Source: Chrysophaeum taylorii
Lineage: Eukaryota; Sar; Pelagophyceae; Pelagomonadales; Pelagomonadaceae
Direction of reading: 5' to 3'
NCBI GenBank assembly: GCA_029834535.1
Contig: JAQMWT010000073.1
Span: 1 to 45,972 of the forward strand
DNA: 45,972 nucleotides
Within the stretch, counting starts at the first letter, position 1; the number at the start of each line of letters is the position of its first letter. Under the pieces are notes generated by a model, which searched no databases, had not been told where the DNA came from, and saw only the letters and a list, made by a program, of their open reading frames with translations. Position numbers and translations under genes: made by a program. Shown one piece after another: positions 886-38,645 of this stretch.

Positions 886-1560
886 AGCCGAATCCAAAGA
901 CGCTGGAAGCACTGCAGAAGATGCCGATTCCAGGTACTTTACCGAATACTTCCCCGAAGACAGATACGCTCTTTCATCTGTATGAGTAATTACTGCCGGC
1001 GATATGTGAAGGGCTACTCGAAGATTGTGGAACCGTTGAGACGATTATGCCTCGAAGGTGTAAAGTTCGAGTGGACGCCCGAGTGTCAGAAAGCTTGGGA
1101 TACGATTATTGAAGCTTTGGTTGATTCCCGTGGAGTCTACCACGCCGATTATGATCTGCCTTTTCAGATCCGATCCGATGCTTCCAGGATGGACTTGGAG
1201 CATATCTCTTCCAGATTGTCGAAGTCAAGGACGATGCCGGAAGAGTGACTCGAGAAGAACGAGTGATTGAATATTGGAGCCGAGCTGTGCCGAAGGAGAT
1301 GCGGAATTATGAGCCCCGTCGGCTAGAGCTGCTGGCAGTTATACTTTCTCTAGAGCACTTTCGAGCCTACATCGAAGGGCACCGGACTGTTTTGGAGACC
1401 GATCACCGAAATTTGACGTTTTTACGTAAGGCGACGCACTCGTCTGGGCAGCTTGCTCGTTGGGCGATGCGCCTCGCCAATTTTGACCCTGAACTTGGTT
1501 ACAAGCCGGGAAAGTCACCGGGAATGAGTATCCCTGACTGTCTCTCCCGCAACCCGATAG
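870..1560 (+). pseudogene. RT connection and RNase H relic of the Ty3/gypsy element
   Basis: From about 870 the frame reads the usual RT-to-RNase H linker (PRGLKPNPKTLEALQKMP), then shifts near 982 into NYCRRYVKGYSKIVEPLRRL. That resembles the gypsy segment in which the element is fixed against the RNase H fold. FQIRSDAS is the first RNase H aspartate region. After another shift near 1245 come ELLAVILSLEHFRAYIEG (Glu helix) and VLETDHRNLTFL (third acidic residue). The domain ends near IPDCLSRNP at about 1530-1557, a typical gypsy RNase H end. Neighbouring segments overlap by few bases, which suggests point indels rather than large losses. Confidence 0.8.
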
Positions 1561-3568
1561 ATCATGTCATCGAGACTGACGAGTTTGGAGAACCTTTGAA
1601 CCACGCGTATTTAGTGTTCCAAGAGCTTCCCCGACCTGTTGATGACCGAGGAGTTCCCGTCTCTGGCTGCCACTTCATAATGTCGTTTATTACGACCGAA
1701 CTGCCGGAAGACGGAGACGAAGACCCTGAAAAGGATCCGATGAAATTGGCTACGTCTCACGCTACGAGACAACGTCGGAAGAACCGTGCGCGTGATGAGC
1801 CACAGATCTTCAAGGACGCAGCCGCTTACAAAGATTATATCGATAAGATACCCGATAATATGACGCTCGCTGAGATCGCACGTGAGCAAGAATCTGATGC
1901 TACGTGCGAGGATATTCGCTACCGAATGGCCCAAGGTCAGACGCCGCGACGTTCCCGAGCGAACGAACGATTCGAAGTCGTTAAAGATGTTCTTTACCGC
2001 ATTTCTGCTGATTTGCACCCGATGATTGTTGCACCTGCTACGTTGCGCAAGCGCATTATTCGACTCTACCATGACACTCCGGTTAACGGTGGTCATATGG
2101 GACGTCACAGTACCGTCCAGGCTATCCAAGAACGATTTTGGTGGCCTCACATGTCGAACGAAGTTGGAGTCTTCATTGCTGAATGCTTAGTTTGCCAGAA
2201 AGCTCGTACGCCTGAGCCGAAACGAGCTGGACTCTTGCAGCAGCCGTCTACGATGGTGATGGTGCTGTTCTTTGCATGGATTTATTTGGACCCTTGCCCA
2301 GCGCTGGTCCCGCGACGTATCTTCTAGTTTTTTTGATCCGTTCTCGCATTTCTTGATTCTGGATGTTTTGAACGATAAGACTGCTGAGTCTGTCCTCGAG
2401 TCTTTTGTCATTAACATTCTCCTCGAGGGCTACTTGCCCCAGATGATTCGTACCGACAACGGTAAAGAGTTCGTGAACAAGTTGATGCGCGAGTTTTGCC
2501 ATCTCTTTAACACACGATACCAAACTACGATTCCTTATCATGCCCAGTCGAACCCGGCTGAGCGTGTCAACCGATTTATCAAGGCCTTCCTCCGTGCTTG
2601 CCTTCAGGGCCGGAACATCACGGATTGGCCTGACTTTGCTCATTATATTGCGTTTTGCTACAACCGCAAGTTTATTCCAGGCACGCAGATTTCTCCCTTT
2701 ATGCTGCGCCTGAACCGTCAGCCGATGCTACCGACTGACTACACGCTCATGGATTTTGATACGATTATTGCCGAAGACTCGCTCTGATGCAGTCGCCGAG
2801 ACTCGCGAACGATTGAAATATTATACAAAGATCGTCCGCGAGGCTCGTGATAAAGCTTTGAAGAAACAACGATTGGCTTACAATGCTGATCATGTTGATG
2901 TTGAATACAAGGAAGGATCGCACGTTTTGCTCTACATCCCTTTCCTTCAGAACAAACTTCGACCGGAATGGCGAGGGCCGTTTATTATCAAGGAACGCCT
3001 CTCCCCGGTCACCTATAGGATTGAGTCTCTCGACTCTCCGCCCGAAGAACGACGTGTTCATGTAAGTCAGATCACGCCGGTGATGGTACCTCCGATCGTT
3101 GATCAAACCATCCGCAAACCCGAAGAAACCTTCCGTGATGATTATCAGCACGGTAAGTTTGTTGTTTTCCGGATTCCTGACCGGAAGCGCTCTGATTGGC
3201 GCAAGAAGATTTATGTTGCCGAAGTTTACGAGCCTTACGATTACCAAAATGATCGTGTTGCTCTACATTTCTATTCCGATTTGGGTCCGAACGATGATGT
3301 CGCTTATTTCAAGCCGACCTCTCACCTTTCGCACCGCAAGCTCAAGCCCGAATTCAAGGACGTTGAAGGTCGAAGTTTCACCGACAAGTCCCGAATTTCC
3401 TCCAACACAACTCCTTGTGTCACGGATTTCGCTCCGCACGAGATTGACGTGTTGGTCCCCAAGTTTACTTTACGCAGTGGTCGAGTTCCTGAACCGATCA
3501 TCACCCGCGTTTACCAGAAGATTCGTTCACGAGATGCTCGTAAGGCGAAGCCGCGCTCCTCGCGCTAG
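1561..3568 (+). pseudogene. Integrase relic of the Ty3/gypsy element (zinc-binding, DDE core, GPF/Y C-terminus)
   Basis: An HHCC zinc-binding module lies at 2067-2205 (YHDTPVNGGHMGRHST, then CLVCQKAR). The core follows with TDNGKEFVN (second Asp, about 2446-2475) and PYHAQSNPAERVNRF (catalytic Glu region, about 2530-2575). The first Asp of the core (DLFGPLP) is readable from 2276 in a short third frame. It is separated from the rest by a T7 run at about 2327-2334. The C-terminal part (2756-3568, shifted again near 2775) has an SH3-like GPF/Y module (RPEWRGPFIIKERL) and a second basic domain of about 130 residues ending at the tag stop at 3566. No clear chromodomain was recognised. Confidence 0.8.
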
Positions 3569-17256: not shown

Positions 17257-20200
17257 TCAGCGAATTAAGCAGCAGCCGGTTTGCGACATAGCTGCCGCCT
17301 CCATTAGAACCTGTCGGACCGCCACGGTTTGCGCCAGGTCGCGCGGCGTGGACTTCTGGCGCGTCTTGGCTCTGATGTCGGCACCCTTCGCGACGAGGAG
17401 CTGCACGCATTCGACGTGGGAGTTTTGAGACGCGAGGTGAAGCGCGGTCGAGCAGTCGGTGGTAGTCGGCCTGTTGATCTCGGCACCGTTTTGAACCAAG
17501 AGCCGAACGCACTCGACGTGGCCATTTTGGGAGGCGAGATGAAGCGGAATCGCGCCATCGCTGGTGGTCGTGGATTTTTTTCTAGATGATCGCGGCTCGG
17601 TCAGCTCGGCGCGCTCGGCGTCCTTGGTCTCGTCGGGGGGAGACGAAACGTCGACCTCGACCTCGTATCGACGTTTGTTGACCTCCGCACCGTTCGCGAT
17701 CAGGAATTTCATGCAGTCGATGTGACCGTTCTGGGACGCGAGGTGAAGCGCGGTGGAGCCGTCGTCGGTGGTGGTCTTGTCGACTTCGGCGCAGTTCGCG
17801 ATCAGGAGTCGCACGCACCCGACGTGGCCGTTCTGGGCTGCCAAATGAAGCGGGGTAGCGCCGTTATCGGTGCGCACGACGTCGACCTCGGCGCCCATCT
17901 CAACCACGAGTTGCACGAGAGTCGTCTTGGACGAGCGATTGGTGGTGTTGGTAGTAGCAGCAGCAGCATTCGCCGCCGCGGCCGCCTTGTCGTCGTTATT
18001 ATTATTATTGTTATTATTATCTTCGGCGCCCTCGGCGTGATGACGGAAAATGGCCCCGTTCTGCGTTTTGTCGACGTCGGCGCCTTTCTCGATGAGAAGG
18101 CGAATGCACTCTTCGTGGCCGTACTCCGCCGCGAGGTGGAGGGCGGTGGCTCCGTCGTCGCTCCGCGCCTTCTCTTCGACGTCGGCGCCCATCCTCACGA
18201 GGAGCCGGACGCAGTCGACGTGGCCGTTCTGGGACGCCAAATGAAGCGCCGTCGCGCCGGCGGTACGCGGTTTGTCGATGTCTGCGCCCTTTTCGATCAA
18301 GTGGCGCACGCACGCGACGTGGCCGTTTTGGGACGCCAAATGCAGCGGGGTCGCGCCGTCGTCCGCGCGCGGTTTGTCAACCTCGGCGCCCTTTTCGATC
18401 AAGACCCGCACGCAGTCGACGTCGCCGTTTTGCGATGCCAATTGGAGCGCCGTGGATCTGTTTTCGGCATTCTCCTTGTCGACTTTCGCGCCCATGTCGA
18501 TCAGGATCCGCACGCTCTCGACGTGGCCGTTCCAGGAGGCCACGAAGAGCGGGGTCATGCGGTTGTCGATCGTCGGTTTGTCGATCTCGGCGCCGTTCTG
18601 GATCAAGAGCCGCACGCAGTCGACGTGTCCGTAAAGAGAGGCCGCGTGCAGCGGGGTCGCGCCGCTGTCGGTCCGCGGTTTGTCGACCAGCGCGTTTTTG
18701 AGGAGCAAGAGGCGCGCGCAGTCGACGTTGCCGTATCGCGCGGCCAGCGAGAGCGGGGTCGCTCCGTTGTCGGTCCGAGGTTTGTCGACGTCGGCGCCCT
18801 CGTCGATCAGAAGCTGCGCAGTTTCGACGTGGTCGTTTTCCGCCGCCAGGAGGAGCGGCGTGAGGCCGTCGTTAGATCGCGCCCTGTTGACTTGGGCGCC
18901 TTTCTCGATCAACGCCTGGACGCACTCGACGTGGCCGTTCCAGGAGGCCACGTGGAGGGGCGTCGAGCCCTTGCCGGTGGTTCCGACGTCGATCTCGGCG
19001 CCTTTCTCGATCAACGCCTGGACGCACTCGACGTGGCCGTTCCAGGAGGCCACGTGGAGAGGCGTCAAGCCGTTGTCGCTCGTCCGCTTGCCGATTTCCG
19101 CGCCCTTTTCGATCAAGAGTCTGGCACATTCGACGTGTCCGTTCCACGACGCGAGATGGAGAGCCGTGGACCCCTTTTCTGTGATGGTCGCTCTGTCGAC
19201 CTGGGCCCCAGTATCGATCAAAAACTGGACGCACTCGACGTCGCCGTTCCACGACGCCACGTGGAGCGGCGTGGATCCGCTGTCGATCGCGGCCTGTTCG
19301 ATCTCGGCGCCCTTGTCGATCAACAGTCTCGCGCAATCCAGAAATCCGTATTGCGCGGCGGAATGGAGGGCATCGCCCAGAAAATCCTCGCCGTGCTTGA
19401 CTTTCTCGAGGAGCAGCGCGAGGGCCTCGGACCGATTAAGCCTCGCGGCGAGCGCCAACGCCGTTTTTCCGGCGGCGTCGTCGACGCGCGCGCCTCGTTC
19501 GAGCAGAATGTTGAGGGCGTCCGTGCACGAATTGACGACCGCGAAGTGAAGCGGCCTGCTGCTGTTGCTCTCGGGGGAGGAGGGGGGACTTTTGTGATCC
19601 TTTGCGGCGGCAGCGGCAGCAGAGAGACTGCCGTTGACGTCGACTGAAAAAGCCAAGGTTGTTGCCGCCCTATAGCGTCTTCGGTGACAGGCCTGCGCGA
19701 AGGCGTAGGAACGAACGTCGTCGTCCCAGTCCTCGTCGTCCGGAATCTCGTCCAGATCGTCGTTCGAGTCGAGCCACTCGATAACCCCCGGTACGAACGG
19801 ATGGGCGGCGAGATCCTCGTCGCACTTTGGCGGGTGGAATACCCGGACCATCTCGGCTCGAAGGTGGACGTCGATGACGCACGAGACGCTGAGGTCGCGC
19901 GGGGTCGAGCCCGACTTGTTGAGGCCGCGCGACCAGGCGCCCGCGGCCAGCAGGAGTTGCGCGCACTCGGCCCGACCCGCTCGCGCGGCCGCGTGGAGCG
20001 CGCTGTCTTTGGTGGCGGGGTCGACGGGCGTGATGAGGTCCGCGCCGCGGTTCACGAGCCCGGCCGCGAGCGAGGTCTCGCCATCCGCAGCAGCGCGACG
20101 CGCAAAGGCCGCCACCCCGGCGACGTCCCGCCTCACCCTTTGCACTGGAACGAAGCGCGTCAACGACCACGAATGTTTGCCGCCAATCCTACCGCCAATC

Positions 20201-21165
20201 TTGTTGTTAGCAGAGTCGATCTCGACGATCGTGCACGGAAAGTAGGTCATGTATTTGCCCAAACAAATCTCGGCCTGCTCGCCGACGCGGAGCTTGGGTA
20301 TCCTTTCGGCGAGCACGTCGAGGGCTCGGTCTCGCATCCGCGCGTCCTCCTTTGCTAGCTGAAACGCGAAGAGCGCGGGCGCCTGCCACCACGGGTCCCC
20401 GAGGTCGAACGCCTCGTCGTCGGCGAGCAGGTTGTCGGGGCCCAATATGCTCGCGACGTAGAGTTCTTGGAAGGTGAGGTGGAAGAAGGCCACGGAGTCG
20501 GTGCCGCGCGGCACCAACGGCGGCAGGCGACCAGCCCGCGCCAGGACCCAGATCGCGGCCGCGAGGCGATTCGTTTTTAAACCTTCAAAGTCGGACCGTT
20601 GGAGCAGTATCCGCTGGTTCTCGTGAGCAGCGAGGGCGAGCCACTCGAACGCGCGACGCACCTCCAGAACCCCGCAGTCGCGAAGGACGTCGCGCGCGAC
20701 CGTAAGGACGTCGTCTTCGGCCGCGCGCTCGACGGCCCGGCCCATAAATACCTCGTCCGCGACGCGAAACAAATCTGATCGATCTCTGATTTCTCGTCCG
20801 GCTCCCAGCAGCGCGAGCCGCAGCGCGAGCGGCGTCTCGACGTGAGCGGCTGCGTCTAATTCAATCCCAAACCCCTCCACGACGCGCTCGCGGTCGACTC
20901 TAGCGATGCTCAGGAACACGAACCCGCGCGGGCCGAGGTCGTCGATGTTCTCGACGCTCGGTCTCGACGCGACGACCACAAACGCGCAGTTCTCGGCGCG
21001 TTCGACGATCGCGTCGACCACCGAGCGTCGACGGCTCGGAGAAATCTCGTCGAGGCCGTCCAGGCACAAAACGACTCGGCGGTTATCACGAATCATGCCC
21101 CAGTCCCCCGCGGGATCTTCGATGCTCGAGAGCGACACGAGCAGCGGGAGAAGAGCAGGCTCGCT

Positions 21166-21197
<32 letters not shown>

Positions 21198-21607
21198 GGG
21201 CGTCGCAGAGCGCTACGACGAGGGCGCGGAGGGTCCAGCCCTTGCCCGAGCCCGCCTCGCCTTCGAGGACCACGCGACCCGTGCGCATAGCCGGCTCGAC
21301 GCACTCCTTCGGCAACACGGCGCCGAGGGCCTCTTTGATGATAGCAGAGTGGTGGGAATGGCCGCCGCCGCTGCTCCCAGCGACTTTGACTTCTGTGCGG
21401 TGAAACACCCGCGGCGGGAGGTCCCGGACGCAGGCCGAGACCGAGACGTTCTGGTTTGTGATGGGGTCGCGCGCGTCGTCGGCCTCGCGCCTTGCCGCTT
21501 CGAGGTAGGAGGATGACGTAGTATCGTTGCTGCTAGGCGATGCCGGCTGCTGCTGCTGCTGCTGCTGTTTCGAGCGGCGAATGACCTCGGCGAAGAGGTC
21601 GTCCCCG

Positions 21608-21639
<32 letters not shown>

Positions 21640-24270
21640 GCTGCTGTCGGGGTCGCCGCGGCGCGCGGCCTCGGCCTTGGCCAACAATGCTCCCGCGTGC
21701 GAGGGATCGTGCTGGATAGCCTTGTCGCTCGCGACCGCCGCGGCTTCCTCCCAGTTTTGGTCGTCGTCGTCGTCGTCGTCGTCGTCGAGGTGGGCGCACG
21801 CGAGGAGCGCAAAACATTCGGCGAGGTCGGCGCCGGGCTCGGCGACAGCAGATTCCAACGCCGCGCGGGCCGCGGGAATATCACCAAAATAAAAAAAGAA
21901 GGCGCGGCCGAGATTCAGCAGCGTTTCGCCGCCAAAGCGCGGCGGCGAAAGTTTTGAGGAGACGACGAGGGACGCGGGGGGCCGTATCCACTTGAACAAA
22001 TCCGCGCCGCAGGCCGGTCGTTGGTTTCTGACTGCCAAGCACGCGCGCAACAAGAGGTTCGCGTCCGCGTCCGGCGCTAAGAGGAGCCGCCTCAACTTGG
22101 CGCGGTCTCGCTTTTTCTTGATCCACCTCGAAGCGTCGCGGAGATTGTTCGGGTTGAGGTGGAAGAGCGAGGCGCCGTCGAGCTTGTAGGAGTGGATGGT
22201 GTGGAGGTGCCTCTGGAGCCAGACGTCGACGTCGACGCGCGACCAGGCGTCGTCCGGCGGCTGGAGGTTGACGATTTCCTCGAGAGCGACGCGAGCCTCT
22301 AAGGGAAAGGTATCGTCGTCCGCGTAGTACAACCGGAGCGCGAGCACGCCAAACGCCCAGATGTCGGTCTCGGCGGGCGAAACCATAGGCTCGTCGTGTC
22401 GTTTCGTGGCGGCTAGCACCTCGGGCGACGCGTAACCAGAACCTCCTCCTACGAGCGGCGCGCGGAGCTGCGCGCCGACGCCGTCGCCTTTTCTCGCGCT
22501 CCCGAACCCCGTCAAACGAGCTCTGTTGTTGTTGTTGTTACCGCCGCCGACCAGGACGTTTTCGAGCCTGAGATCTTGATGCAGGACGCCGCGGGAGTGA
22601 CAGAACGCGAGACCGGAAGCTACTTGCTGAAGCAACGAGAGTATCGAATCCCTGACACCTTTAAGATCGCCGTCGTACAAGTCGCCGCTCGACGCGAGGC
22701 GTTCGAGGTCGCGGCCGCCGTCGACAAGGGTGAAAAATTCGAAAAATTCGCCTTGGACGACCGCGCAGTACTCTAGAGAGACGACGCAGGGATGCGACCC
22801 GAGCTCGGCCGCGACCATCGCTTCGCGACACGCGTCCTTCGAGAGGCTCCGCCGTCGCATCGCGGAGCGCGCCCCGTACGACGACGACGACGACGACGAT
22901 GATTTTGCGATGTATATGTCTCCGAATTCGCTGCGAGCCATGAGCTCCTCGACCTCGAAGAAGCGGAAGAAGCGACCCCTCGGAACTACTCGTCGTTTTT
23001 CTTCTTCTTCTTCTTCTTTTGAGGAGGAGGAGGAGAAGAAGTCCACCTCGCGCCTCGGGGGGGCGCGCGGGGCGATCGGCTTGGCGAGCCTCTTGGCGCC
23101 CTCCAATGCTTGGACAACTTCCACGTGGCCGCGGCAGAAGGCAAGGTCGACCGCCGTCTCGTCGCCGCGCGAAAAGCCGGCGTCGACGTCGACCGCGGCG
23201 CGAAGACATTCAACTACGTCCACGCGTCCCGCGTACGCGGCGACCATCAACGCCGTCCGGTCGTCGCAGTCTTTAGCTTCCAAATCCACCACTTTCTCCA
23301 CCAAAAAGCGAACAACTTCGACTTGTCCTCTTGCGGCGGCGTGATGGAGCGGGGTGCGGTCGCGCGCGTCCCTCACTTCGAAATGACCCAACAGCTCGAG
23401 CGTATCGAGGTTTCCGCGAAAGGCCGCGACGTGAGGCGCCGCCCACGGTCCGAGGGTCTCGTGGACGATGTCCGGGGCCTCCTGCAAAACAGCTTCGACA
23501 ACGCGCGTGTCGCCCAAGAAGCTCGCGGCCACCAACCGAATCGCGAGCGCCGGCTCGGTCAGGGTCCGATGCTCGGTTTTCTCGGCTTTCTCGGCCGCCG
23601 CGACGACCGCGACTTCGTCGTTCCGCTCGATCGCTCGCATCAGCTGCTCGGCGGTCGCCTTGAAGACCGCGTAGTTCTTCTCGTCCCCCGCGAGCGCCGC
23701 GAGCGCGACCCGCGATTCTTCCGCGTCGACACCCCCCTCTCTCGCAACCTCCTCCAAAGCTTTCGCGTCCGAATCGAATTCTTCGCCCGAAAACCGTCCC
23801 AACGCCTCCTCGAGCTTGTAGACGTGCGTTCTCAACAGCAGCTCGACGTGCGAATCCCGCACGACCCCGTAAGCCTGGGTCAAAAATTCCAGCTTGTCGC
23901 GTATCTTTTCGTCGACGAGAGATATCTTCGACCCCGCGTGCCTTCGCTGCCGCCACATCCGCTTCAAAAAGCCGCTCTTCCCGTACTCCCGGACGGCGTA
24001 CTTGAGGTCCTCCAACAGCTGCTCGAGCTCCAACAGCGTATCTTCCTCGTCGACGCGTCCTCTCGCCAAAAGCAGAAAATCCAGAACATCCACCACGCGC
24101 CGCCCAGCCTGGGCCACGTCCTTCGCGCGGCTCCGCAGCCTTCGCACGTCCAGGAGAATCTCCTTCGCGACCCCGCAGATCCCCCACTGCGGCAGGCTCG
24201 CGACGATCTCGAGCCCGGCCTCGAGCCCAGCGTTCGTGACCACTGCGCGCTGACGATCCCTGCGCTTCAT
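17257..24270 (-). CDS. NLR-like giant protein: helical N-terminus, ankyrins, pseudokinase, NACHT NTPase, about 20 C-terminal ankyrins
   Basis: 2337 residues, one exon, ATG at 24270. Residues 20-160 are an amphipathic helical region resembling MLKL-NTD/HeLo four-helix bundles (EILLDVRRLRSRAKDVAQ; LLELEQLLEDLKYAVREYGK). Ankyrins: about 240-395. Kinase fold: about 435-755, with the catalytic-loop HQDLRLEN (564-571), SPE (615-617) and DIWAFG (636-641). The glycine loop is poor, the beta-3 lysine is replaced (AMRR, 470-473) and DFG is GFG (588-590), so it is probably a pseudokinase. Residues 780-870 are TPR-like. NACHT: Walker A GEAGSGKG (1004-1011), Walker B LCLDGLDE (1068-1075), ASRP (1101-1104), FFHLTFQELY (1262-1271). 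A small tudor-like beta region lies at 1325-1380. Ankyrins: 1395-1460, then about 20 from 1570 to 2310. Tracts of S, E, D, N and Q lie between domains. Family knowledge suggests a STAND-type sensor and switch; a cell-death or signalling output is inference. Divergent from the SLC35B1-like gene. Confidence 0.88.
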
Positions 24271-25461: not shown

Positions 25462-26475
25462 ATGATCACTTCGTCGTCGTCGTCAATTCTTCAGAGGCCG
25501 TTCCGAAAATCCGTTATTGAAGGACTCATGAGCGAGACCCTGATTTTCTTTGTGCTCGCCGCCGGCGTGATCGGGAGCTTCACCGCCTTTGGGTTTGCGC
25601 AGGAGGCCGTGACGAAGACGGATTTCGATGGCGAACGGTTTCAGTTCTCGACCTTCCTCGTTCTTCTCCAGTCCCTCGGTAACGCGACGGTCGCCGGCGT
25701 CGTGTTGCTAGCGCGCAACAAGTCGCTCAGCGGCGATGTCCCCGTTTCCGAGTGGCTCGTCGCCGCTCTCGGGTACTTTGGCGCCCATAAATTCGGTCTC
25801 ATGGCGCTATCCTACATCTCGTTCCCGATGCAAACCGTCTGCAAGTCGTGCAAGGCGATACCGGTCATGGTCGGCGAGAAGATATTTGCGAAGAAACGCC
25901 ATTCGCTGGCCAAGACCCTCGGGGTTCTTTGCATGTGCGTTGGGGTTGTGATGTTCACGCTCCTCGGACCTGCGAAAGCGTCCAAAAAAGCTGAATCTCC
26001 TGCGATTGGTTTGCTTCTGGTGTTGGCCGCTCTCGCCTGCGACGGCCTCTACGGTCCGTACCAAACCGCGATCCAGACTAAGGCCAAAGACCTCACGGCC
26101 TGGCACCTCATGTTCAACATGAACCTCTACCAAGGCTTGCTGTCGTTGGCCCTCTCCTACGACGACCTCCCCAAGGCGATCGCCTTTTGCGCGAGGCATC
26201 CTCGCGTGATCCACCTTCTCGCGCTATTCTCGGCCGCGATGGCCCTCGGCAACATCTTTATCTACCAGCTCCAAGCGGCCTTCGGCAGCCTCGAGGTCAC
26301 CAAAGTTACCACCACGCGCAAGCTCGTCTCCGTCCTCGCCAGCGTCTTCTTCTTCGGACACGCCCTCACCCTACCCCAGTGGCTCGCCGTCTTCATCGTC
26401 ATCTTTAACAAGCAGGAGGGCACCGCCCTCGCTGCCCTCTTCTCCCCCCTCACCAAGAAGCATAAATCCGTCTAA
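25462..26475 (+). CDS. SLC35B1: SLC35B1-like ER nucleotide/nucleotide-sugar transporter (UAA family)
   Basis: 337 residues, single exon, ATG at 25462. Multi-pass membrane protein of the drug/metabolite transporter superfamily. Family marks in order: GFAQEAVT in TM1-2, SYISFPMQTVCKSCKAIPVM (typical of SLC35B), CDGLYGPYQT, MFNMNLYQG, and KVTTTRKLVSVLASVFFFGH near the C-terminus. In animals SLC35B1 exchanges ATP/ADP across the ER membrane; related members move UDP-galactose or PAPS. The C-terminal KKHKSV has lysines at -3 and -5, an ER-retrieval signal of the KxKxx type, which supports ER location. The length fits the family (about 320-350). PAPS transport (SLC35B2/3-like) cannot be excluded, which would connect it loosely with the sulfotransferase at 9.35 kb. 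Confidence 0.85.
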   Translation: MITSSSSSILQRPFRKSVIEGLMSETLIFFVLAAGVIGSFTAFGFAQEAVTKTDFDGERFQFSTFLVLLQSLGNATVAGVVLLARNKSLSGDVPVSEWLVAALGYFGAHKFGLMALSYISFPMQTVCKSCKAIPVMVGEKIFAKKRHSLAKTLGVLCMCVGVVMFTLLGPAKASKKAESPAIGLLLVLAALACDGLYGPYQTAIQTKAKDLTAWHLMFNMNLYQGLLSLALSYDDLPKAIAFCARHPRVIHLLALFSAAMALGNIFIYQLQAAFGSLEVTKVTTTRKLVSVLASVFFFGHALTLPQWLAVFIVIFNKQEGTALAALFSPLTKKHKSV

Positions 26476-34094: not shown

Positions 34095-34469
34095 AGAAGC
34101 TGTCAACGGCTCGCACGACATATTATTCCGAGACCGTTCTCGGAATCTATCTTTTTCAGTCGTTATTTGCAACGACTAGCAGTTGCATAATTCAAAATCG
34201 TCAACGGCTAGGGTTTGAAGATGGATTATTAGGTTCGGGACGCCCAAAAAAAATAATAAAATCACGAAAGCGATTAGAGGGCAAAAAAACTCCCGAAATG
34301 AATTATCTGCTGCTTTTTGGGTCCGGTAGTAGATTTTCTACGAGGAACCTCCCTCCTCTATAACTTTTATTATTATATGCGAGCCCGACGGTCGACCCAG
34401 TCAGACAGATATAATATTTCCCAATATTGAATTTTTTGCGAGGTTCTGTTGGAGAATGAACCGAAGCAC
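34095..34469 (+). promoter_or_regulatory. 5' flank of the Patched/NPC1-like gene with two hairpins
   Basis: A 9-bp perfect stem ATTCCGAGA with loop CCGT lies at 34125-34146. A 7-bp stem AGTCGTT/AACGACT follows at about 34158-34177. An AT-rich stretch with TATTATTATATG lies about 100 bases before the ATG and could be a core promoter. No gene is seen here. Confidence 0.4.
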
Positions 34470-37400
34470 ATGAAGAGCATCAGCAGCTCCAAGGCGGAGG
34501 AGGAGGAGGAGGAGTATGGTAGTGCGTTGCTGAGTCGGGGGTTCGAGTGGCTCGGGTGCGCCTGCGGGAAGCGGCCCGTGGTGGCATGGGCGTTCGTGGT
34601 GGCGGTGTGCGCCGCGTGCGCGTCGGGGTTGTTCGTGCGACAACACATCGTCGACCATCGGCTGTTCGAATCGCTGCTGATTCGACCCCGCACGCGGCTG
34701 CAGCGCGAATCGGATTGGGTCCAGAAGAACGAGGATCCCGGGTACGCGACGGGGAGCGAAGCGACGAACGGGCGCGCGACGAGGGGCGGGAAAGACGTGT
34801 TGACGCGCAAGAATTTGGAGCAGGCGGCAGCGTTCTTCGAGGACGCGAATCTGCTCGACGTTGCTATCGAACGACGCGGGGTCCGGTACACGACTCGGAA
34901 CGTCTTGAGTTGGGCGGGGTCGCAGCCGTACCGGTTCACTGTTTTGGACTGTTTTCAGGAGGGCGCGTACGACTACGAGGGCGACGTGTCGGCGCTCGGT
35001 ACGGCTGGACTCGTCGCCCTCGTCGTCCAGGAATACATGGCTCCCTTTGTCGCGGCTTATGGGGGAAACGTGACCGTGACGCCCTATAATTGGTGTCTGT
35101 ACCTGAGGGTCGGAATCCCGTACGCGCCGTCGACGCTGTTCGATCCACTATCTTTTGGCAGGTGCCGGAAGTTTATTCGCGAAGATCCGGGGGGTGATTA
35201 CGCGGCCCTCCGAGAAGCCTACGACTTCCACCGTTTTCTCGCGTATGATAGGGTCAAGAGGTCGCCCTCGACCTACGTGACCTGGGGCTGCGACCTGGAC
35301 GTCGAGGACTGTCACGCGCTCATGACGTGCTGCGAGGTGTCCGAGCTGTACGCGAGGTGCGCCGAGGGCCAAGGCACTTTTCCCGATTCTTTTGGGGGCG
35401 GCGCGAACTCGACCACCACCCTGCTCCCCACCGGGAACGTGACGCAGGAAAAGTGCGACGCGGCGGCCGAATTGCTGGGGATTACGGACTGGTTTGAGAA
35501 CCCTTACTACGACGCGGCTTACGCGGCTCTTTCGACGTGCGACGCCGTCGACTTCTACCCGATGTCGAGCCTCTACGGCTCGCTGGTCGGTTCGTCCGCG
35601 AGCATCGCGACCACCACCGTACTCGAAACACCTAACTGCGAACAGCGCAGGGCTGCATATTCTGACGACGACGACGACGATTCGACGTCGACGTCAGAGA
35701 TCGTGGAATTCGCAGTCCGCGAAATATTCTGCAAATTCGACGGAGCGACGGATTCGTGTCCGTCGACCCTCGAATCCCAAGACGTGGAGTGGGACTTCGA
35801 GGCGACGATTGCCACCGAAGAGGAACTGTACCAGACAGCGACATCGAGGGAGTGCGCGCACTGGGACGGCGGGCCCGCGGGATCCGTCCGTCTGCTTCCC
35901 TACCAGCAAATCGAGGTCATTCTCGGGGATCTCGGAGCGAAGATCAAGGCGATGCAGGTAGTGTACGTGAGCCGGGGATACAAGGAAGTGCGCGACGAGC
36001 TGGGTGTCTCGACCGAAGACGCGAGACTCGGCGCGTTGGACTTTACGCGGAAATGGGGAAACGCGCTGCACGGACGTCACCGCGGCGGATCGATGAAGTT
36101 TGGGACCTACAGGTCGGACGACGCCGAGTCGGCCTCGGCGGCTCAGACCTTTCCGGAAACGTATTTGGTTATTGTCGCGTACGCCCTCATTCTCGGCTAC
36201 ACGTTGTTTGTGGTGATTTGTAGCGGCCGGAAAATAGTCCTCGACGCCATTCTCGCGGTCGCGGGCGCGTGCTTCGTCTTTATCGGGTTGGTCGGCGGCG
36301 TCGGCCTCGCCGTCTACGCCAACGTCAAGTTTAACCCGGTTTCGGTCCAGGTGTTGCCCTTTTTGGTGTTGGGATTGGGGATCAACGACCTCTTCGTCTT
36401 CACGCACAGGTACCTCGAACTCCCCGCGGCCCTAGAAGGGTGGGTGATGGCGGGCCAGGTTGCGAAGGACGCGGGAGCTTCCGTGACGATCACGACCGCG
36501 GCCAACGTCTGCGTCTTCCTCGTCGCCGCCATCACCATCAGGATGCGCATGATAGCCCACTTCTCGCTGCTGGCGGCCTGCGCTCTCGCCGGAACGTGGG
36601 TGGCGATCGTCTTCGGGTACACTGCGGTTCTCGCCGTTCACGCGGACGTCTCGGCGCGCCTGGATCGAAACAACAAGAAGAAGAAGACGACCACCACCAC
36701 CGCCAAGGCTTCTTCTTTCGCCGCCGCCGACGACCAACCACCTTCCCGATTGTCACAGCAGCCCAGGGACTCGAGAATCTCGGAATTTGCCGCGAGCAGG
36801 AAGCTGCGCGCCGGGGCGTACGCGCGGGTCGTGACGGGCCGCGCGAGACTGATCGTCGCTTGCGTGTTGGCGACCGCGGCCGTGCTCGCGAGCCTGGGAA
36901 TCCCACGAGTCAAGCTCGACTATCACGTGAATTACGTGTTCGAACGAAGATCGTCGGCCGACGCGTTCTGGCAAACTAAGTTGAAGTACATCAGCTCGAA
37001 TTTTTTCAAACTCTACACGGGCAAATCGGATTTCGCTCGACTGCACCCGTTGCTCGCCTCGGAGGCCGACCCGTCGAGGTACTCGTTGATGCGTCGGGTT
37101 ATGGATTCGAAGAAAATTATTTCTGGCGGCCAAGAAAACTGGTACAATTACTTCGTAAGATTTAACTACCCCTGCGGCGCCGGGAGCTTCTCGTCGGACC
37201 TCGCCGACGGCGAGGTCGCCGCGAAATGCTTGGAAGATCCGTTTTACGCGCCGTTGGGTGGCCTTTACAATTCGAGGTGTTCTGAGGACGACGCGTTGAC
37301 GCGACCGCCCGGCGCCTGCGGCCGCGCAATCTCGGAGCACTTTTTAACCCAATCCGAATTCGTCCACGCCGACACCAAGGCGGATATTTACGACCGAGGG

Positions 37401-38546
37401 TCTTCGGACCTGAGCTCGCCTCTCGTGCCGGCGTGCACGGCGTGGCCTGTCCAGTACTTTCGGTGTTCCGGCGACTACTGCTTTGGCCCCGACGAGCTCA
37501 CGCCAAACCTGTTTGACGCTGTGATCAACAACGAGACGACCGTGTACGGGATCCATCCCTCCTACTTTTACGAGTGCTTGAACCTCTTCCTCCGGCACGA
37601 CGACGCCCACGAGCTCACCTCGCCCCAATTCAATTGCCAAGAACTGGGGGAAAAAGAAAAGAGAAAACCTTGCGTCGCAATCCCCAAAGCAAACAGATCC
37701 GTCTGGCTCGCCCAAGGCGACATGGACTTCTCGAGCGTGCGGATCTGGGCCACGAACATCGGCCAAGGCTCGAGCTGGCTCGCGATGTTCGACTCGTTGC
37801 GCCCCAAGCTCGACGACTTCGTTGCCGACACGGGTCTCGACGCCTACCCCCACGGCACTTTCTGGGTCTTTTATTACCAATTCCGCTTCATCGTCAAGGT
37901 CATCTTATTGGCCTTTGGATTCTCGGCCCTCTGCGTCTTCGCGATTGGCTCCGTCTTCTTCGTCGCGGCCCAAACGGGAGCTTTTCGGACTCGAATCAAA
38001 GAGGCGTCGCGGCTTTCGCTTTTGGTGGTTTTGGCTATTGCGGTCCAAATCCTTCTCTTCGTTGCCTTGATGGGCCTCGTCGATCTCTGGGTCAACTGCT
38101 TCACGATGGCCACCGTCATCGTCTCCTTCGGGATTGCCGTCGAGTTCGTCGCGCACACCGCCTTTGGCTATCTCGCCTCCCGCGGAGATTCTAAACACCG
38201 GGCCGCGGAGGCCCTCAAGACCTACGCGATGCCCATCCTCGACGGCGCCTTCACCACCTTCCTCGGCTTCGCACCCATCGCCGCCTCAAAGTACCTCTAC
38301 GTCGTCGTGTACTACTTTCTCATATACGCGATTTTGGTCGCCGTCGGCTTCGTCTCGGGGATCCTCTTTTTCCCCGCCTTGCTAGCGGCCGCGGGCCGCA
38401 ACAACGGCCCAAACCCACAACACCTCTTCTTCGACGACCTCCCCAAATCATCATCACCTCCTCACGAAGATGATCGAGACCCTTCGCGGAATAAGATTGT
38501 GATGAACGACCACGACGAATCGAAGCTCGACGCACGCACTGCTAAC

Positions 38547-38591
<45 letters not shown>

Positions 38592-38645
38592 CATCTGGGG
38601 GGGAAAGAAAAAAAGTCTCCACCAATGCTCATCTCGATGTCCTAA
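34470..38645 (+). CDS. Patched/NPC1-like RND-family membrane protein with sterol-sensing domain
   Basis: About 1391 residues, single exon. I place the start at the ATG at 34470 (MKSISSSKAEEEEEEYGS); the open frame reaches 34449 but only through a TTG. TM1 is at 37-56 after KRPVVAW. A Cys-rich exoplasmic domain of about 500 residues follows. The sterol-sensing five-helix block is at about 562-735, with LPFLVLGLGINDLFVFTHRY near 628-648 at the RND TM4 position. A charged low-complexity loop (about 730-770) and a seventh TM (about 790-810) precede a second exoplasmic domain. The last five TMs are at about 1130-1310, with SFGIAVEFVAHTAFGY (near 1221) and GAFTTFLGFAPIAAS as in NPC1. The family moves sterols or other lipids across membranes using ion gradients. 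The N-terminal sterol-binding domain of NPC1 was not recognised. It ends with an acidic tail containing a (GAT)n-encoded D14-type run (about 1359-1373). Confidence 0.85.

Follow-up and report, generated by a model that had tools for sequence, protein, structure and literature searches.

We analysed a window of 45,972 nucleotides from the pelagophyte alga Chrysophaeum taylorii (contig JAQMWT010000073.1, positions 1 to 45,972 of the forward strand; C73 in our labelling) and found that it carries one very long gene of the nucleotide-binding leucine-rich-repeat receptor (NLR) type. The single open frame of 2337 codons proposed in the first-pass annotation of this protist DNA exists, and runs on the minus strand from 24270 to 17257; frame 1 of the plus strand over 17257..24270 holds many stops. 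An estimate from base composition places a stop-free run of this length at ~63% GC far beyond chance. The frame joins a helical bundle, ankyrins, a kinase fold, a weak tetratricopeptide repeat (TPR)-like stretch, a NACHT ATPase with a helical region and about 20 further ankyrins, in this order; Pfam scans and family comparison supported the ankyrins, the kinase fold, the NACHT domain and, at the level of the family, the bundle in the single chain. It corresponds to the NCBI model CTAYLR_010308 (P0002; 2321 aa), which matches the frame save for 16 residues (1360-1375), encoded by 48 bases (20146..20193, minus strand; 16 codons) that the model omits as an intron. A GT..AG pair fits this stretch with a one-base shift. 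Given that coding sequence is aligned at the site in all four paralogues extending that far, the intron may be an annotation artefact; the chain is single with or without it. An NCBIfam search returned 15 families, all far under their own cut-offs and mostly ankyrin or kinase cross-matches, and scanning the window for Rfam families and for tRNAs gave no matches.

Searches of the 70.8 Mb C. taylorii assembly, which all genome scans reported here cover, revealed that the gene belongs to a family. The N-terminal region had 26 matches at E<=0.001 (30 at E<=1), the kinase 90 (11 at E<=1e-50) and the NACHT region 25. The order bundle-kinase-NACHT was found at 11 loci (C73, that is the window, C309, C207, C529, C534, C27, C551, C358, C366, C538 and C74), indicating that it is more than a chance arrangement. 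Five of the 11 read as one uninterrupted frame (C73, C309, C27, C538 and C74), three carry in-frame stops (C207, C551 and C358), two are broken once (C534 and C529) and one is spread over several frames (C366). Because C74 keeps the whole order at 36% identity to the window over the matched NACHT part (query 232-408), we concluded that the architecture is old within the lineage. The ratio of non-synonymous to synonymous substitution rates (dN/dS) of the window against C27, C309 and C538 was 0.18-0.31 in three of the segments (first ankyrins, kinase and NACHT); for the bundle, comparison with C309 gave 0.31, and another pair was saturated. These rough values, with dS often >1, average the whole divergence and do not date recent decay. 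They indicate past purifying selection. For a further member, C437, the sequence retrieved runs from the kinase into the ankyrins, and the genome search gave no bundle match. We also observed a kinase-NACHT-ankyrin paralogue (P0003; C324:77911-82956) in whose NCBI model leucine-rich-type repeats, recognised by eye, replace the bundle, owing either to an exchange of the N-terminal domain or to a misplaced gene start.

The NACHT core lies at residues 996-1110 (20941..21285, minus strand, as are all features of the chain below) and carries GEAGSGKG, LCLDGLDE and VASRP. Its Pfam score in the window depended on context, being 20.8 bits in the whole protein, 24.5 in the cut-out piece and 28.2 with genomic neighbours (cut-off 26.7). 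The call is secured by the family, since the profile was matched by 6/6 members (best E 6.5e-8); a genome scan gave 16 matches, and C27, C324 and C534 each exceeded the cut-off alone. Walker B (LDGLDE) is intact in the window, as first read; in two paralogues its last acidic pair is changed, with N in C27 and R in C437. The Walker A motif had likewise been described as intact, a claim rejected on alignment: a Gly stands after the Lys in place of Ser/Thr, so that the motif reads GKG and not the canonical GxxxxGK[S/T]. The same GKG is present in eight of the ten members read (window, C309, C27, C538, C324, C529, C534 and C207), the exceptions being C74 (GKT) and C437 (a shortened motif). Between Walker A and Walker B the window is ~15 residues shorter. 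The alignment further delimits a helical region after the NACHT core (residues 1111-1334; 20269..20940) with a conserved FFHLTFQE-like motif, which may correspond to the winged-helix region of NLRs. The model of the NACHT region was poor (predicted local distance difference test, pLDDT, 54.9), and the structure matches listed for it, for the most part AAA+ ATPases such as clamp loaders and dyneins, together with one AVAST5 entry, were not used as proof. A profile search of the PDB with the NACHT alignment gave no NLR match and a single chance match (E 0.84). The genome also encodes a second, separate family of signal transduction ATPases with numerous domains (STAND), L001, L003 and L007, in which WD40-like repeats, recognised by eye, come after the NACHT domain.

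The kinase fold (residues 432-765; 21976..22977) was clear, Pkinase scoring 63.2 bits over residues 474-649 against a cut-off of 31.7. The HRD motif reads HQD with its Asp kept, as in 9/9 alignment rows, and DFG reads GFG. The beta3 Lys is apparently Arg (SAMRRR versus FAMKRV), a placement made by eye where the automatic alignment has a gap. Judged by motif, the window kinase looks dead. To place this in the family we read 11 kinases, a set that differs from the 11 full-order loci by including C324 and C437 and lacking C551 and C358. The DFG Asp is lost in six of them (window, C309, C27, C538, C437 and C74), and these six include each of the five members, a small number, whose full frame is uninterrupted; the other five kinases keep both Lys and DFG Asp (C324, C529, C534, C207 and C366), four of these at full-order loci. 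The 9-row kinase tree requires at least two changes. Thus motif-intact and dead kinases coexist, the kinase being dead by motif in the window and five relatives, and the idea that the whole family consists of pseudokinases was rejected.

The C-terminal ankyrin array (residues 1420-2310; 17341..20013) has 20 units over threshold, in agreement with the original count of about 20. Pfam found 20 Ank stretches in the protein (Ank_2, 580 bits over the whole protein), and our scan found 21 units against a mean of 0 in shuffled sequences (n=20); an initial pattern counted poorly and was replaced by the one used for these counts. The remaining unit, at residue 306, belongs to the first ankyrin group (approximately residues 233-400; 23071..23574), which is more distinct in the paralogues than in the window. 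Seven other family frames, some incomplete, have 16 to 43 units. Pairs of units at least 85% identical numbered 45/231 in C309, 48/105 in C534 and 0/55 in the window, by which measure the window array is apparently the older. At seven likely contact columns, chosen post hoc after the entropies had been seen, the ratio of non-synonymous to synonymous change (pN/pS) was 1.68 against 0.38 elsewhere in C309 and 1.24 against 0.42 in C534; random column sets were as high in 18/200 and 16/200 draws, respectively. The ratio was below 1 in C27, C538 and C437, and the window showed no excess (0.63 against 0.49). These values are suggestive of selection on contact columns in C309 and C534 only.

The N-terminal bundle (residues 1-225; 23596..24270) was modelled by AlphaFold2 as a confident helical bundle (pLDDT 88.5), of which residues 26-177 (23740-24195) superpose on the MLKL bundle. 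MLKL ranked first in the structural comparison, and the MLKL_N profile was matched above its cut-off of 27 by the paralogue C309 (29.1 bits) and below it by the second C324 locus (23.9 bits) and C529 (21.8 bits). Foldseek against the PDB gave 155 matches at E<=10 and none at E<=0.001, several of the first rows being designed helical proteins. When the PDB was searched with a profile of the bundle, the alignment, built from 16 of the 30 genome matches after exclusion of broken, partial and near-duplicate ones, returned 20 rows, none significant (best E 0.14); MLKL (4btf) appeared at E 1.8, collinear, and is a lead only. Several family members have a hydrophobic first helix, and the window bundle is missing a segment relative to its paralogues (a shortened helix). 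The MLKL/HeLo-like character first assigned to this N-terminus is therefore partly supported: it appears to hold for the family, whereas the window copy is weak.

The same bundle is used elsewhere in the genome. It precedes kinase domains in L020, L021, L023 and L034, the first half of the last lying in another frame; inspected by eye, the kinases have HRD and the DFG Asp still in place (L021 reads DFA). It is also fused to a ROC GTPase in L013 (C324:98865-99443; Roc 30.9 bits) and joined to TPRs in L037. A protein database search found bundles 68-76% identical to that of L020 in P0026-P0028. A stretch resembling a hydrophobic membrane helix, seen by eye, stands before the bundle in P0025-P0029, and in P0025, P0026, P0027 and P0029 the bundle lies between this stretch and a kinase, P0028 being without one. 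These relatives are probably receptor-kinase-like proteins, present in other database sources as well. Direct joins of bundle and kinase occur only in such shorter relatives; in the window the ankyrins intervene.

Two minor segments complete the chain. The TPR-like repeats reported after the kinase (approximately residues 780-880; 21631..21933) are weak, the one match being in a paralogue, L069, and below cut-off (TPR_16, 20.3 bits; cut-off 32.7). A small beta-rich segment (residues 1335-1385; 20116..20268), seen as strands in a low-confidence model and present in 5/5 members whose alignment extends that far, separates the NACHT half from the ankyrin array and coincides with the site of the NCBI intron; we presume that it could be Tudor/SH3-like. 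Elsewhere in the window, all on the plus strand, are retroelement pieces (1245-3568; reverse-transcriptase RNase H and, from an integrase, the zinc-binding and C-terminal domains), a transporter of the UAA family (25462-26475), which is oriented divergently to the NLR gene, and a sterol-sensing/Patched-type protein (34449-38645).

We propose that the gene encodes an all-in-one receptor of the NLR (STAND/NACHT) type whose MLKL/HeLo-type bundle kills or disables the cell, a reading for which we consider the case evenly balanced. The C-terminal ankyrin array, perhaps with the first ankyrin group, would sense a protein ligand; nucleotide exchange would then switch on the NACHT module and the chain would oligomerise. 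The kinase fold of the window would have a non-enzymatic role, that of a latch or a platform for docking; paralogues with intact kinase motifs could phosphorylate. Oligomerisation would release the bundle, which may act on the membrane and kill or disable the cell upon infection or encounter with non-self. Several observations weigh against this proposal. The window bundle itself scored only 12.9 bits with MLKL_N (E 0.08), and unrelated bundles scored nearly as well as MLKL in the structural comparison. Furthermore, the occurrence of the bundle before kinases, ROC and TPRs, often after a hydrophobic stretch, keeps alive a less probable explanation, namely that it is an oligomerisation or adaptor module by which a kinase is recruited to a membrane or complex, and that the chain is a NACHT-controlled signalling scaffold (a kinase relay) and not a killer. 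The bundle's position between membrane-helix-like stretch and kinase, in this genome and in the database proteins, its ROC and TPR fusions, and the five intact kinases fit such a scaffold. However, loss of the DFG Asp in six of the readable kinases and in every uninterrupted full frame argues that catalysis is not what is kept, and the hydrophobic first helix of several members agrees with an action on membranes like that of HeLo/CC-R bundles.

It is improbable, though worth weighing, that the window copy is in decay while the family as a whole is alive, the copy being either inactive or a decoy. The segments missing from its bundle and NACHT domain, the loss of the DFG Asp and probably of the beta3 Lys, its branch length of 0.78 in the 9-row tree, its diverged ankyrins and the stops in sister copies, which point to birth and death of copies, are consistent with decay, whereas all 2337 codons remain open and dN/dS against paralogues is well under 1 in all four segments tested. 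It is very unlikely that the frame reads through introns or through more than one gene and so does not correspond to a single protein in the cell: the excised 48 bases and the internal interruptions of C534 and C529 raise the doubt, whereas NCBI keeps a single chain from a pipeline that, in the available part of the genome paper, used RNA-seq and protein homology (PMC10366177), and identical joins recur in five uninterrupted frames.

Taking the killer-receptor proposal further, we suggest tentatively that each polypeptide of this stramenopile family forms a complete device of necroptosis-like kind, in which an array binds the ligand, NACHT is the switch, the (pseudo)kinase is the latch and the MLKL-type bundle is the executioner. 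The parallel fusions of the bundle to kinase, ROC GTPase and NACHT suggest an old shared pool that supplied both MLKL and NLR executioners. Given that intact and dead kinases coexist and that the uninterrupted members are all dead, the conversion of kinase to latch may be traceable within one genome. The executioners of necroptosis and those of NLRs share the bundle fold, but research on them has mostly run on separate tracks. A genome that joins this bundle to kinases, to a GTPase and to kinase-NACHT-ankyrin chains, and that has active-looking next to dead kinases, would make it possible to test in which order such chains were assembled and what the pseudokinase does.

The first-pass annotation held that such parts normally work separately or in two-part fusions. 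Three are indeed together here, but the pairings are on record: in the sections available, fungal papers describe HeLo-type bundles on all-in-one NLRs and HeLo-like bundles on (pseudo)kinases (PMC12881547, PMC9815663), and kinase-NLRs are described in plants (PMC11218826) and fungi (PMC4986451, PMC12258605). Full chains were found in protein searches only in C. taylorii (P0002 and P0004; the P0003 model is without the bundle), in searches that each scored only the ~8000 candidates sharing most words, the first being swamped by ankyrins, and that do not show absence elsewhere. Literature searches among open-licence papers, as far as available, gave no description of the three-part chain or of NLRs in this alga, and the accessible main text of the genome paper mentions no NLR, NACHT, ankyrin or kinase (PMC10366177).

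The closest systems, as described in the available text, are the fungal HeLo, HeLo-like and basidiomycete MLKL_NTD NLRs, which share the MLKL-type bundle, NACHT, ankyrin arrays (among ankyrin, WD or TPR C-terminal repeats), multi-copy families, internally conserved repeats in some members and, in the basidiomycete proteins, an extra N-terminal helix as in the alga bundle (PMC9815663, PMC4986451, PMC12881547). The homogenised arrays and pN/pS of C309 and C534, at columns chosen post hoc, are similar to those of fungal NLR repeats (PMC4986451). Unlike the alga chain, the fungal NLRs as described are without ankyrins and kinase between bundle and NACHT and belong to fungi, not stramenopiles. Plant kinase-NLRs (Pkn-NLRs, e.g. 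Tsn1 and moss proteins) share a kinase in the NLR chain, and a Sordariales NLR kinase resembling CHK2 has been interpreted as an integrated decoy (PMC11218826, PMC12258605, PMC4986451); the plant proteins use NB-ARC, and neither they nor the fungal kinase NLRs have an MLKL-type bundle in front in those descriptions. Animal and plant MLKL and the fungal HeLo-like-kinase proteins share bundle and (pseudo)kinase in one chain (PMC12881547). Compared with these, the alga chain has ankyrins between bundle and kinase and the added NACHT-ankyrin half. Among stramenopiles, brown algae have NB-ARC-TPR candidate receptors, and we know of no bundle or kinase in brown-algal candidate receptors. Their ROCO candidate immune receptors likewise carry repeats, with a different NTPase, in the part of the report available (PMC11378527), and are linked to the bundle by the bundle-ROC protein L013. 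As far as our searches show, bundle, kinase and NACHT in one chain of a stramenopile is new, and the family would extend MLKL-type NLRs to this group.

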